Positions 47,705-61,973 of a DNA stretch of 64,000 nucleotides are shown piece after piece; position 1 is the stretch's first letter; each line of letters opens with the position of its first letter. The notes under the pieces are model-generated. The model was not told where the DNA came from and made no database searches. It saw nothing but the letters and a program-made list of their open reading frames with translations. Location of the stretch: positions 1-64,000 of the forward strand of contig NZ_JAMCCX010000011.1 of assembly GCF_024706985.1 (NCBI RefSeq). Reading direction: 5' to 3'. The stretch comes from Alicyclobacillus sp. SP_1 (GTDB lineage: Bacteria; Bacillota; Bacilli; Alicyclobacillales; Alicyclobacillaceae). Position numbers and translations under genes: made by a program.

Positions 47705-48523
47705 CTATTGTATGACTTGTCGAGCAAAAACCAGGGCTCGTCCCATCCAAGTCGTGGCCAACGGAACTTCGACGACCTTCCGATATCCGCCGCCTTCTTC
47801 AATGACCATGCCGTGACCCGCATAAATACCCACGTGCCCTCCGCCAGTGGCATTGGTGGATGTGCGGAAGAAGAGCAAATCGCCCATTTGAAGGTCTGAT
47901 AGCGGTACTGGGGTTCCCACGTGATAGCGTTGATAGACGGACGACCCGGAAAATGAGATTCCCAACGCTGTTCGATAGACCCACGCCGTAAAATTAGAGC
48001 AATCAAACCCGACACCTGGCACCTGATGGCCCCACCAATAGGGTACGCCCAACTGAGTTTTAGCTACTTGAATGACTTTCTCAGCCTCGTGTTGTTCGGT
48101 TGCCGATAACGTGGTGCCATTTCCCAAACTACTCCCTTGTGCATGAGCGTGAGTCGGATGAGTGACCGCTTGAGCATGTTTGCTCGGTACTTCATTCGTG
48201 CTCGGCGCGCTCGATTGAGTCTCCACTAAATGCGTGAAGTGTGGATTCGTCGTGATATAGAGAGTGTGGTGCTGCCATTCCACCTCATACCAATAGCGAT
48301 TGACTTTGCTGACAAGCGGAGCGTCTTCTCCCAGCAACAAACGTCCGTAGAGCGGCGACTGAAGACTGGCTGCAGTATGAAAGTCGACATATCCGTGAAT
48401 GGTCTGGACGGAAAGTGGATTCGTAGCCGCTTCGGCAACCGTGCCCACACCAGGCACACCCAATAAGCAGATAGCTGCGGCACTTCCAAATCGCGACAAT
48501 CGCTTGAAACGCAAAGTCATCAT
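47705..48523 (-). CDS. Exported NlpC/P60 endopeptidase
   Basis: 272 residues: signal peptide (about 10-33, ending VAEAA), an SH3-like region (VDFHTAASLQSPLYG and WYEVEWQ), a His/Ser-rich linker, and an NlpC/P60 domain with catalytic Cys in VGFDCSNFTAWVY and His in GGGHVGIYAG. It cleaves D-Glu-diaminopimelate bonds in wall peptides. Convergent with the GH18/permease pair. Confidence 0.87.
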   Translation of the reverse strand: MMTLRFKRLSRFGSAAAICLLGVPGVGTVAEAATNPLSVQTIHGYVDFHTAASLQSPLYGRLLLGEDAPLVSKVNRYWYEVEWQHHTLYITTNPHFTHLVETQSSAPSTNEVPSKHAQAVTHPTHAHAQGSSLGNGTTLSATEQHEAEKVIQVAKTQLGVPYWWGHQVPGVGFDCSNFTAWVYRTALGISFSGSSVYQRYHVGTPVPLSDLQMGDLLFFRTSTNATGGGHVGIYAGHGMVIEEGGGYRKVVEVPLATTWMGRALVFARQVIQ

Positions 48524-48592: not shown

Positions 48593-49255
48593 TCACTTCG
48601 CGAAGATGAATGGACCAATTTCGTTCGTTCGAGGCTGAGACCATACCCAACTTCCTGACGGCGTTTGCGCCGGGTTGAAGAAGACCATCGCTCCAGGGAC
48701 GAGATCGACCTGCTTCGCCAATACATCCTCGGCGGCGGTATAGGCAGAGGAAACGGGGGTATTATAAATGAACCCGTTTGTCGTACAAGAGAACTGAGCA
48801 TATCCATCACTTTGTTGAAAGACAACGTCATACACATTACTTCCATATCCGAAACTCTCAAGTCGATGGAGAACAACGTCGCCAACCGCAATTTGCGCAC
48901 TCATACTGGTTCCCTGTGCTTCAGCAGAAATGAGGTGAGCCATCCAATAGAGATTCGCACTGGTATCATAAGGGGAAGACACACTGGCCTCCATCGAGTT
49001 CATGACAGGTAAATTGTTTACAGTCGCGCTCGGGAGTTTCAATTGCGTGCCAACCAAGATGTCCAGTGCAGGTACCTGAGGATTTGCTGCTTCGAGCGCA
49101 TTCAGACTCACGCCATATTGCTGCGAGATAGTCCAGAAAGTCTGCCCGGATTGAACGGTCACGGTCGACAAAGTAGCTGCCTGAGCTGTGACGACTCCGG
49201 TCAGCAAAACGGCGGATGCAGAGGCGATAGCAACGGAAAGTTTTCGCTTCAACAT
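48593..49255 (-). CDS. LysM and SleB-type cell wall hydrolase
   Basis: 220 residues: signal peptide (1-26, AQAA), one LysM domain (VTVQSGQTFWTISQQYGVSLNALEAANP), then a Hydrolase_2/SleB-like domain with MAHLISAEAQG (catalytic Glu), QIAVGDVVLHRLES, NVYDVVFQ and QFSCTTNGFIYNTP. The family lyses cortex or wall. About 250 bases upstream of it hold no gene. Confidence 0.85.
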   Translation of the reverse strand: MLKRKLSVAIASASAVLLTGVVTAQAATLSTVTVQSGQTFWTISQQYGVSLNALEAANPQVPALDILVGTQLKLPSATVNNLPVMNSMEASVSSPYDTSANLYWMAHLISAEAQGTSMSAQIAVGDVVLHRLESFGYGSNVYDVVFQQSDGYAQFSCTTNGFIYNTPVSSAYTAAEDVLAKQVDLVPGAMVFFNPAQTPSGSWVWSQPRTNEIGPFIFAK

Positions 49256-49506
49256 ATGGATTAAACACGTCTCCCTCTCACAGTTTGCCTCCGAGGTTAG
49301 TTGTCGGGTTCAGGCGGTCGAGAACGCCTGTTTGGTAAGAACCAAATTCACCCCAAGTGCTGAACTTTGCCAAGTGCTTCGCTCAGCAACAAAAATCCCC
49401 CGTACATCTATAACATAGACGATTCGGCTGAAGTGGCGTGCTAGAACAGTATCATGAAACCCGTGAATTGTAACGAATCAATTTCTGACAGTCGTACTAT
49501 ATTATT
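49256..49506. other. Intergenic stretch upstream of the LysM-SleB gene
   Basis: About 250 bases; nothing recognisable beyond the hydrolase ribosome site at the left edge (GGGAGACG on the minus strand). No RNA gene or repeat seen. Confidence 0.4.
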
Positions 49507-57909: not shown

Positions 57910-59784
57910 TCAACTCCCGGTAATGTAGCGCGTTGCCGGCGATTTTCGGACCATCTGGAGCATACTACCAACGACAGCATCCACCGTCAGGCCAACGTCC
58001 TGTAGCAACTCCGCGCGATTTCCATGTTCCACAAACCGATCCGGCAACCCCATTCTCGTTAAAGGCACCGCGTATCCTTCATCCACCAAAAACTCTGCTA
58101 CAGCACTTCCCACACCACCAGCCAACGCGGCTTCTTCCAGCGTGAGTAAGGGCACCTGCGCCGATGCAAAATGGCGAACCATCCCGACGTCTAAAGGCTT
58201 AACGAAGCGTAAATTCACCACACTCATCGAGAGACCGTGTTGTGCAAAGAGGCGCTCCGCTGCTTGGGATGCCAACTCAACCATAGGACCGAGAGCCAAA
58301 ATTGCGCCGTCTCGCCCTTCACGAATCACTTGAGACTTTCCGATGGGAATCGACTCAATCGGAGACTGCAACGCCACGCCGAGTCCATCTGCCCTCGGGA
58401 AGCGAACGGCTACCGGACCGGGCTGCTCGAGAGCCGTTTTCAGCATGCGTCTCAACTCGTTTTCGTCTTTCGGCATCATCACCGTCATGTTAGGAATGGC
58501 TCGAAGATACGATACATCAAACGCTCCCTGATGGGTCTCACCATCTGGTCCAACCAAACCAGCACGGTCCACTGCAAAAACAACCGGAAGTTTTTGAATC
58601 GCGATGTCGTGAATCAGTTGGTCGTAAGCTCTTTGTAGAAATGTCGAGTAGACTGCAAATACTGGTCGCATGCCACTCGCTGCGAGTCCACCACACAAAG
58701 TGGTCGCGTGTTGCTCTGCGATGCCCACGTCAAAGAACCGTTCAGGAAAGCGAATCCCAAATTTATCCAAACCTGTACCGCTTGGCATAGCCGCAGTCAC
58801 CGCAACAATTTTCGGATTCTCTTCGGCTAGTTCGATGAGCGTTTTGCTAAACACGCTCGTGTAAGACGGTGCAGTGGCTGGTTTAGCAGCGCTCGGCCAA
58901 GCATGCCACTTATCTGGCGCATTCTCTGCTGAAGCGTACCCTTTTCCTTTTTCGGTAATGACGTGCAACAAAACAGGGCCTTCCATTTGCTTTGCGTCCT
59001 CAAGCACGTCCATGACGGCGTTTAAATCGTGCCCATCAATCGGGCCTAAATATTTGAATCCGAATTCCTCAAAGAGATGTCCGGGAACGACCAAATGGCG
59101 TACCGAGTCTTTCACCCGCTCTAGAGCGCGTGTAAGTTTTGGCCCAATGGCGGGGAGTCTGCGCAAGGACTGCTCGATTTCCGCCTTTGCGCGGGAATAT
59201 GTAGGGTCGCTTCGGAGTTTGGTTAAATAGTTGGACAGAGCTCCGACATTCTCCGAGATGGACATCTCGTTATCATTCAAAATCACGAGCAAGTTGGTAC
59301 CCACGTGTCCAGCGTGATTCAACGCCTCCATCGCCATCCCGCCCGTGAGAGCGCCATCTCCAATGACGGAGACAACATGGTGGTTACCACCTTCTGCATC
59401 TCTGGCAATCGCCATGCCCAGAGCCGCAGAAATTGAAGTACTCGCATGGCCAACTCCGAATTGGTCATGTACACTTTCCTCGCGCTTTGGAAAGCCCGCC
59501 ATCCCTTTGAATTTGCGCAGAGTAGAAAAACGCTCACGGCGGCCAGTTAAAATTTTATGAACATAAGCTTGATGACCAACATCCCAAACGAGCTTATCGA
59601 TGGGACTGTCAAAGACACGATGCAGTGCGACAGTCAATTCGACTACGCCGAGATTCGCCCCAAAATGTCCCCCAGTCTTCGAAACGGAGTCCACCAAGAA
59701 TTGGCGTATCTCGATGCAGAGTTCCTTGAGTTGCTCGTCATCTAAGCTCTTTAAATCCTGTGGGCTATTGATGTGTTCTAACAT
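57910..59784 (-). CDS. dxs: 1-Deoxy-D-xylulose-5-phosphate synthase
   Basis: About 624 residues. VWDVGHQAYVHKILTGRR, the thiamine diphosphate motif GDGALTGGMAMEALNHAG...NDNEMSIS, LHVITEKGKGY, GIAEQHA and DRAGLVGPDGETHQGAFD are conserved. It starts the MEP isoprenoid pathway. The ATG at 59784 gives the normal length; the frame to 59955 lies over oapA. It follows oapA by four bases. Confidence 0.93.
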   Translation of the reverse strand: MLEHINSPQDLKSLDDEQLKELCIEIRQFLVDSVSKTGGHFGANLGVVELTVALHRVFDSPIDKLVWDVGHQAYVHKILTGRRERFSTLRKFKGMAGFPKREESVHDQFGVGHASTSISAALGMAIARDAEGGNHHVVSVIGDGALTGGMAMEALNHAGHVGTNLLVILNDNEMSISENVGALSNYLTKLRSDPTYSRAKAEIEQSLRRLPAIGPKLTRALERVKDSVRHLVVPGHLFEEFGFKYLGPIDGHDLNAVMDVLEDAKQMEGPVLLHVITEKGKGYASAENAPDKWHAWPSAAKPATAPSYTSVFSKTLIELAEENPKIVAVTAAMPSGTGLDKFGIRFPERFFDVGIAEQHATTLCGGLAASGMRPVFAVYSTFLQRAYDQLIHDIAIQKLPVVFAVDRAGLVGPDGETHQGAFDVSYLRAIPNMTVMMPKDENELRRMLKTALEQPGPVAVRFPRADGLGVALQSPIESIPIGKSQVIREGRDGAILALGPMVELASQAAERLFAQHGLSMSVVNLRFVKPLDVGMVRHFASAQVPLLTLEEAALAGGVGSAVAEFLVDEGYAVPLTRMGLPDRFVEHGNRAELLQDVGLTVDAVVGSMLQMVRKSPATRYITGS

Positions 59785-59788
59785 CCTG

Positions 59789-60400
59789 CTACACACCCCG
59801 CTTCCGACGCTTCCTCCATCCCCGCTCGTCGCGAAATCGTCGGATTCCACTTTTGCGCGATAAGGTCGCCGCAGTTTCCCAAACTTGGGCGGCAAACAGG
59901 ACAATAGGAGTCGGAGAATGAATTGCAACTGTCTTTCCAATAGCTTTCGAACCAACGGTGATGGAAGTGATGAAAGCCGTCAATACAATGGCGATAGCCT
60001 CTTTGTACCAACCGTGCAATTCAATCGATTTGACGAGTTGCACGCTCACCGCGAGTGCACCTGCACCACTCAAAACGCCAGCAATATCGCCAATCACATC
60101 TGAACAAACGCTCGCCACTTTCTCCGCATTGCGGACAATTCGTATGGCTTTCTTTGCGCCATATACGCGTTTCGAAGCCATCGCGTGAAACGGTGTCTCG
60201 CGCGCAGCGGCAGCGGCCAAACCAAGCATATCGAACGCTACGCCAACCATGACGATACACAGTACACTGACCAAGCCGACATACCACGTTGCCCGATTTA
60301 AGGCAATCGTCGACGTGTCAAACACAGCACTCATGGGAAGAGTAATCGCCGCAATCACCAAGGCAAATCGAATCGGTGTGCGCTTTGCCTTGTTCCGCAT
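59789..60400 (-). CDS. oapA: OLE-associated membrane protein OapA (DUF21/CNNM-like)
   Basis: 203 residues with four membrane helices (about 12-27, 37-62, 105-125, 138-158). The linker AAARETPFHAMASKRVYGAKKAIRIVRNAEKVASVCSDVIGDIAGVLSGAGA is the most conserved part and resembles DUF21/CorB-type proteins. Location exactly between the OLE RNA and dxs matches oapA of Bacillus halodurans, whose product binds OLE RNA at the membrane. The C-terminus is strongly basic (RRFRDERGWRKRRKRGV). ATG with AGGAGAGG upstream. Confidence 0.78.
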   Translation of the reverse strand: MRNKAKRTPIRFALVIAAITLPMSAVFDTSTIALNRATWYVGLVSVLCIVMVGVAFDMLGLAAAAARETPFHAMASKRVYGAKKAIRIVRNAEKVASVCSDVIGDIAGVLSGAGALAVSVQLVKSIELHGWYKEAIAIVLTAFITSITVGSKAIGKTVAIHSPTPIVLFAAQVWETAATLSRKSGIRRFRDERGWRKRRKRGV

Positions 60401-60424
60401 AGATTGAGCCCTCTCCTAATCGTG

Positions 60425-61025
60425 CCTTTAATCGGGTGGCAGCACTCTGAGTAAACGCTGTGGCTTAGGTCCAGTTGGTTTTCCCAAGAAGGCGCCTTCG
60501 CGTCACCGCACAGGCGGTTTCCCTTTCAGCCTTCCTTGACTGCGTCGCCGACAATCAGACTAGATTACCACTTAGTCCACACTATAATCCTCAGAGCGCC
60601 AAGCCAATGGCGAACAGTCTAGGCGTTTTCCGCGACAGCCGGGACCACTCTCTAGCCTCTTTTGCAGAACGGATTTCACCTGGCACGGGCAGTCATACCT
60701 TGGCCGAGGTTGACCGCTTGTACCCCAGGATCCTTCAGCACCACTCAAGGCAGGCTACACTGCACACAGATTGCCTCCGCATGCAGGTTCATACCCCAAG
60801 CCGTAACCCCATTAAACGCGAGCCACGCACTTAGGCCTCCGCGAAAGCTGGGTCGAGTTCCACATGCCATTGCGGCTCTCCCATCTTTCTTAACTCCCAG
60901 CATCAGCCCAAGGCTGGGCGCCTCAAGCCAACACCAGGAACTTCATCGATGTGCCCTTTGGCGGATTTTTAGCCCCGCCTTCAAGAGTGGGCGGCCGACT
61001 AGAATACTGCGCCACCCTCCGTGTA
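60425..61025 (-). ncRNA. ole: OLE RNA (ornate, large, extremophilic RNA)
   Basis: A roughly 600-base region between ispA and oapA with no gene on its own strand. It is rich in complementary segments: the ends pair (GGGTGG 61017-61012 with CCACCC 60439-60434, extended by CAG/CTG), GGCGG pairs with CCGCC around a loop near 60959-60981, and ACCGC-CTGT-GCGGT near 60505-60518 is followed by GACG as in kink-turns. Size, orientation and neighbours (ispA, oapA, dxs) match OLE RNA loci of extremophilic Bacilli. The 5' end is set by an extended -10 at 61031-61039. Confidence 0.8.
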
Positions 61026-61030
61026 CGCTT

Positions 61031-61039
61031 AGTATACCA
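61031..61039 (-). promoter_or_regulatory. Extended -10 promoter of OLE RNA
   Basis: TGGTATACT on the minus strand is an extended -10 element (TGnTATAAT-like). No good -35 box is present, which an extended -10 can tolerate. Predicted start near 61024, seven bases before the terminal stem of the RNA. Confidence 0.5.
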
Positions 61040-61103
61040 CAGCATTTGCAAAGATCTTCAGGAGACCTCCAGATTCCAAAAACACACGAAAACATCCAAG
61101 TCT

Positions 61104-61973
61104 CTATCGATCACGGTTCACCACCATCGACAGCATCTGCTGCAATACGTCGCTGTCGACTGAGAGGGCACTCAATTCCTCGAAAGCCATTTCTTGGACG
61201 CTGTGCAATCGAGCTCTGGCTTCAGACAATCCGAGCAAGGACGGGTAGGTCAACTTTCCGTGCGCCTCATCTGAGCCAACGGTCTTGCCGAGGATAGCAG
61301 TGTCTCCCGTAACATCCAAGATATCGTCGACAATCTGGAATGCCATGCCCAAGTGGCCGCCAAACGCTCTCAAATGCTCGTGGTCTGACGGAGACACCGC
61401 TGCCGTCAGTCCGCCAATCACGACGCACGCCTGTAACAGTTTTCCCGTTTTGTGCAAATGAATGAATTCCAGGTCCTCCAGAGACGCCTCGCGATTTTGT
61501 TCCGCTTCCATATCTGCCGTCTGACCCAAGACCATTCCCTGCATCCCGGCGGCCTCCGCTAACGTCCGAATCACATTTATCTGAATGGAGTCACTCACGG
61601 ATGTTTTCCGCGTCATCAATTCGAACGCCAATGTTTGGAGCGCGTCACCAGCCAGTAATGCGATGGCCTGTCCGAAGATGCGGTGATTCGTGGGTTGTCC
61701 TCTTCGCAAGTCGTCGTTGTCCATACACGGCAAATCGTCGTGAATTAAAGAATAGGCATGGATACATTCGACAGCTGCCGCGAACGGCAACAAGTTTTGT
61801 TCATGTTGGCCAAACATCGTACCAGTAGCCAGAATAAGAGCTGGGCGAAGCCGCTTTCCGGGGGATAAGAGGCTGTACTTCATCGACTGGTGAAGAGTCG
61901 ACGAAACCGGTATTTGTTCGTCCAGATATTTTTCAACCATTTTCGCCCAGCGAGCAATATCGCGCTGAATCAA
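61104..61973 (-). CDS. ispA: Polyprenyl (farnesyl/geranyl) diphosphate synthase
   Basis: 289 residues. First aspartate-rich motif in SLIHDDLPCMDNDDLRRG, second in AFQIVDDILDVTGD; PGKRLRPAL binds the pyrophosphate. It condenses IPP and allylic diphosphates. Part of folD-xseA-xseB-ispA operon; stop followed by about 80 bases before the OLE RNA start. Confidence 0.92.
   Translation of the reverse strand: MIQRDIARWAKMVEKYLDEQIPVSSTLHQSMKYSLLSPGKRLRPALILATGTMFGQHEQNLLPFAAAVECIHAYSLIHDDLPCMDNDDLRRGQPTNHRIFGQAIALLAGDALQTLAFELMTRKTSVSDSIQINVIRTLAEAAGMQGMVLGQTADMEAEQNREASLEDLEFIHLHKTGKLLQACVVIGGLTAAVSPSDHEHLRAFGGHLGMAFQIVDDILDVTGDTAILGKTVGSDEAHGKLTYPSLLGLSEARARLHSVQEMAFEELSALSVDSDVLQQMLSMVVNRDR

Follow-up and report, generated by a model that had tools for sequence, protein, structure and literature searches.

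Judged by its sequence, the minus strand of positions 61031–60420 of the window (the whole 64,000 nt stretch of DNA that was analysed) is a full-length and ordinary OLE RNA locus in a relative of Alicyclobacillus. OLE is a very large bacterial RNA that acts together with a membrane protein to help cells resist stress (PMC9723947, PMC11332333, PMC12265935, PMC12286853). Evident in the sequence are the full-length RNA, a conserved extended −10 element, the closing helix P1, the oapA and dxs genes downstream and, elsewhere in the genome, genes for OapB, OapC and bS21. We consider it very probable that the locus represents the ole gene of a bacterium of the family Alicyclobacillaceae, with its own promoter, a P1-closed product and oapA-dxs following, and that its RNA would form an OapA-bound regulatory particle like that of Halalkalibacterium halodurans.

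The OLE family is already known and the present copy is not unusual. The general interest of the locus resides in the question of what OLE RNA does and in the setting of its host, as species of Alicyclobacillus are acidophilic to moderately acidophilic, and Alicyclobacillus montanus comes from acidic hot springs (PMC13064119). In a host group with such a habitat, OLE RNA provides a test of the proposal that the RNA protrudes through the membrane.

An OLE RNA locus between ispA and oapA

An earlier note on this DNA had identified the interval as OLE RNA flanked by ispA, oapA and dxs, and had suggested a search with the Rfam covariance model. This identification held. When the whole window was scanned with all Rfam families using cmscan, the OLE model (RF01071) matched the minus strand at 61031–60420 from model position 1 to 616 of 616, with a score of 512.9 bits (E = 1.5e-147) against a gathering score of 50 bits, and the three genes lie where they had been placed. 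A genome-wide search indicated that the RNA is present in single copy. Its sequence is 86% identical to the copy in A. montanus, the nearest genome of its genus among those searched, and 63–74% identical to copies from Bacillaceae and Paenibacillaceae.

The space between the ispA stop codon (61104) and the oapA ATG (60400) is 703 bases long and carries no recognisable gene, as the note had described. A protein-coding reading of this gap was rejected, since its four mechanically called open reading frames gave no match to any Pfam family. Upstream, on the same minus strand, is an ispA-type farnesyl diphosphate synthase gene (61104–61973; NF045485 FPPsyn, 352 bits, cut-off 275). Downstream is oapA (59789–60400, minus strand), which encodes the 203-amino-acid OLE-associated membrane protein A, relatives of which were found in 80 loci; nearly all of those scanned adjoin OLE. 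A ribosome binding site for oapA, AGGAGAGGG, can be read from the sequence at 60409–60417 (minus strand). The dxs gene for DXP synthase follows (57910–59784, minus strand; TIGR00204, 861 bits), and its ATG at 59784, also read from the sequence, lies 4 bases past the oapA stop codon. Farther upstream on this strand are xseB, xseA and folD, and beyond them nusB, an amaP-like gene, a yqhY-type Asp23 gene, accC and accB (names read from translations), giving the order accB-accC-yqhY-amaP-nusB ... folD-xseA-xseB-ispA-OLE-oapA-dxs. The arrangement ispA-OLE-oapA-dxs is the published setting of OLE RNAs.

The note's statement that OLE is always near oapA, ispA and dxs applies here but is slightly too strong in general, as one genome has a second OapA gene away from all three. 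In Pullulanibacillus camelliae this second gene (L030:2995-3573, also L126), whose product is approximately 50% identical to the OapA of the window, has neither OLE nor ispA nor dxs alongside. The genome is not a case of oapA without OLE, because a different contig carries OLE and another, adjacent oapA; the second protein may have been acquired without its RNA partner. Two further RNAs were noted during the scans. A c-di-AMP riboswitch at 49270–49439 (minus strand, 68.7 bits) is the only other Rfam match within the window, and it precedes genes for a LysM cell-wall hydrolase-like protein (48593–49255) and an NlpC/P60-like protein (47705–48523), both named from their translations. In Oceanobacillus salinisoli, a Bacillaceae-1 RNA is found just upstream of OLE (L069:2141-2241, 39.4 bits).

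Conserved structure, promoter and predicted transcript ends

Our main alignment holds 65 OLE copies, comprising that of the window, 34 from other members of its family and 30 from Bacillaceae, Paenibacillaceae and relatives, and 207 of its 612 positions are invariant. In a 36-row alignment evaluated with the Rfam structure plus P1 and P3/P3.1, 91.2% of cells are paired, compared with 79% in shuffled alignments and 40–44% when the structure is slid, and two-sided changes occur at 123 of 178 pairs (79 in shuffles; none of 500 shuffles as high). The dense complementarity that the note had remarked upon exceeds chance, in that the minus strand of 61017–60434 folds at −255.8 kcal/mol, whereas shuffled sequences fold at −222.8 ± 6.1 (z = −5.5; 0 of 100 as good). 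The P1 and P3 helices are recovered in single-sequence folding too.

P1 is the closing helix, formed by GGGUGG (61012–61017, minus strand) with CCACCC (60439–60434), a terminal pairing that the note had picked out. Although P1 is absent from the Rfam consensus line, 389 of 390 cells are paired across the 65 copies, with exchanges of G-C for A-U and compensatory changes at three pairs. The P3/P3.1 stem consists of 14 pairs between 60983–60997 and 60652–60636 (minus strand), located by duplex folding and by the alignment; approximately 97% of its cells are paired and 12 of the 14 pairs show two-sided changes. The A-rich loop of P4 (60966–60973, minus strand) corresponds to a published A-A dimer contact (PMC12286853, PMC12265935), and its AAAAA run is invariant in our alignments. 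A GGCC palindrome in the P9 (L9.3) loop at 60702–60705 (minus strand) corresponds to the kissing-loop dimer contact (PMC12286853) and is found in the loop of the aligned rows. Thus, at the level of primary sequence, both published dimer contacts that can be read directly are present and conserved. The P12.2/P13 region, the published binding site for OapB, is placed from the consensus at 60486–60536 (minus strand); the corresponding alignment helices, numbers 23 and 24, have 95–99% of cells paired, with compensatory changes.

The size of the RNA and the number of its invariant positions could be taken to favour catalysis, and it has been speculated that OLE is a ribozyme, for example a c-di-AMP synthase (PMC11332333), in which case OapA would merely be its anchor. 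However, OLE is not known to be catalytic, and we regard this role as decidedly unlikely.

An extended −10 element, TGGTATACT (TGnTATAAT), is located at 61039–61031 on the minus strand, without a convincing −35 element; scanning this strand for two-hexamer consensus promoters gave nothing. When the 90 bases upstream of P1 were scanned allowing one mismatch, such an element (at least 7 of 8 matches) was present in all 65 copies and perfect in 50, compared with 8.8% (one mismatch or none) and 0.3% (perfect) in shuffled sequence. The extended −10 box described in the note is thus conserved, and it would set the 5′ end. The element ends 11–19 bases before P1 in most copies and 13 bases before it in the window, so the RNA is expected to start near 61024. 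Accordingly, the Rfam match, from 61031 onwards, would open with bases of the promoter rather than of the RNA, and the P1-bounded RNA occupies 61017–60434. In 14 family members, among them some Alicyclobacillus species, the element ends 25–54 bases before P1 (L089-L091, L095-L097, L099, L101, L103, L106-L108, L110 and L111), and a longer 5′ tail is expected on these OLE RNAs.

A scan of the minus strand found no terminator-like site from OLE to oapA. The 3′ end is therefore probably generated by processing, which has also been proposed for the H. halodurans RNA (PMC9723947). The same lack of a terminator, the position of OLE directly upstream of oapA, and the spacing of only 4 bases between oapA and dxs would also be expected if OLE were nothing but a long leader that controls oapA-dxs expression in cis. 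Against such a leader stand the long conserved structure, which P1 closes upon itself, the promoter that immediately precedes it, and the location of the oapA ribosome binding site outside the OLE structure. Moreover, the H. halodurans RNA has protein partners, abundance and phenotypes of its own (PMC9723947). We therefore consider an exclusively cis-acting role exceedingly improbable, and favour an RNA that functions within a particle.

OapA and the proposed OLE particle

OapA has the helical make-up of a membrane protein and a basic tail, in agreement with the note's description of the downstream gene. The 'DUF21-like linker' claimed there fared less well, as it corresponds to the membrane region (residues 44–177), which matches the CNNM/DUF21 profile (PF01595) weakly, scoring 17.4 bits against a cut-off of 28.4. 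Weak matches to this profile (E up to 0.1) were obtained for 36 of 41 OapA proteins. In an alignment of 41 OapA sequences, 29 residues are invariant, among them D101 and D105 of the DxxxD motif, which has been reported as distinctive of OapA (PMC11332333). Searches of PDB sequences with OapA or an OapA profile gave nothing credible, and only a fold search tied the protein to CNNM. With an AlphaFold model of OapA (pLDDT 87), the best six PDB matches were all CNNM/CorC transporters, at modest E values of 0.004 to 0.3. The predicted fold thus resembles the CNNM/CorC/MpfA Mg2+ transporters, but OapA differs from these in lacking the CBS and CorC domains, in carrying DxxxD and in falling below the Pfam CNNM cut-off. 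On the basis of the model, OapA may work like a CNNM protein, although we do not class it as one.

A search of the host genome found no CNNM/MpfA match, which is in line with the published anticorrelation between OLE and MpfA. Five of 41 family genomes (G004, G007, G008, G014 and G029; the loci of three are L116-L118) encode a full CNNM (MpfA-like) protein in addition to OLE, and replacement of one by the other is therefore not strict.

Genes for the other partners were also found. The solved structure of OapB (PDB 7k9b, 'OLE-associated protein B') is matched at E = 2.1e-15 by a 118-amino-acid frame that lies between adk and infA, an 82-amino-acid protein between rpoC and rpsL matches the YbxF-type structures 3v7e and 4lck (E = 2e-20) and is assigned as OapC, and the bS21 gene is present. 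All four partners of the H. halodurans OLE ribonucleoprotein (OapA, OapB, OapC and bS21) are thus encoded in this host.

How the particle might work can be outlined from published studies of H. halodurans and clostridial OLE RNAs (PMC9723947, PMC11332333, PMC12265935, PMC12286853). The RNA would be made from its own promoter and, given the lack of an intervening terminator, trimmed from a longer transcript that includes oapA and dxs. It would dimerise through the P4 loop, the P5.1/P6.1 loops and the P9 GGCC kissing loop, and be folded or locked by OapC and OapB. OapA, with its CNNM-like fold, would hold the RNA at the cell membrane and probably handles divalent metal ions; membrane localization and stress phenotypes are known for the H. 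halodurans RNA (PMC9723947, PMC12265935). The assembled particle would then adjust ion (Mg2+) balance, and also growth when cells face cold, alcohol or nutrient stress. By analogy, OLE RNA may serve as a regulatory domain for OapA, in the manner of the CBS and HlyC/CorC domains of protein-only MpfA transporters.

Acidophilic hosts and the location of domain 2

OLE RNA is present in all 41 genomes of the family, 40 of them by search and the 41st (G026) as a partial copy at a contig end. Absence from G026 was considered and rejected, because its oapA contig (L024) extends only 116 bases beyond oapA on the upstream side, where the last 89 bases of OLE are retained. In the literature searched we found no paper that joins OLE RNA with Alicyclobacillus, and a GTDB-wide survey (PMC11332333) probably counted genomes of this genus.

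Lyon and Breaker proposed in 2025, from cryo-EM geometry, that P3/P3.1 spans the membrane, leaving domain 2 (P1, P2 and P10–P15) and OapB on the outside (PMC12265935). In an acidophile, this model would place approximately a third of the RNA at acid external pH. If true, it would mean that a natural RNA keeps its fold and its function at low pH, outside the cell; domain 2 would have to survive acid in Alicyclobacillus and strong alkali in H. halodurans. As all genomes examined from this acidophilic family have OLE, with a domain 2 essentially like that in hosts from other habitats, these organisms offer a natural experiment.

The stem itself is compatible with the proposal. P3/P3.1 has 13–15 pairs in all 35 Alicyclobacillaceae copies and 12–16 elsewhere, its pairing is supported by the compensatory changes described above, and it reaches the approximately 12–14 pairs needed to span a membrane. 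Its length, as read from the sequences, fits the transmembrane model, but length alone is no proof of insertion. In the 35 Alicyclobacillaceae copies relative to the 30 from other families, the shift towards G-C pairs in P3 is +0.19 (95% interval 0.08–0.31), the highest point estimate of three regions, with overlapping intervals.

A and C are the bases that are protonated in acid. Domain 2 shows no loss of A + C in the acidophile group, and its net divergence is not above that of domain 1 (unpaired positions, 0.042 versus 0.067; paired positions, 0.114 versus 0.121), the bootstrap intervals of both differences including zero. The G-C pair shift is alike in domain 2 (+0.118) and domain 1 (+0.110), and the rise fits the higher GC content of the acidophile loci (57% versus 44%). 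A further point against an outside location is that the gene for OapB, the protein that binds domain 2, lies among genes of cytosolic translation. Among these 35 and 30 copies, therefore, we found no domain-2-specific divergence or composition shift beyond that of domain 1, where the footprint that acid should leave on RNA is itself not established. This outcome weakly favours a domain 2 that is unexposed to acid; it carries little weight both for that reason and because the comparison group is mixed, positions within a domain are not independent, and acid habitat was assigned by family. Overall, we consider a membrane-crossing OLE RNA unlikely, and the stronger claim that OLE RNA of acidophiles crosses the membrane and has its conserved domain 2 working outside in acid highly unlikely. 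A domain 2 that is inside the cell, or shielded, is more likely than one exposed outside, and acidophiles are well suited to deciding between the two.

Relative to known representatives of RF01071, the RNA described here belongs with the full-length class (PMC11332333), as it shares the complete model match, the consensus helices, the dimer loops, the ispA-oapA-dxs setting and the presence of OapB and OapC. In P8 and P9 it is shorter than Paenibacillus OLE RNAs, and its host is a member of the acidophilic Alicyclobacillaceae rather than an alkaliphile or a clostridium.
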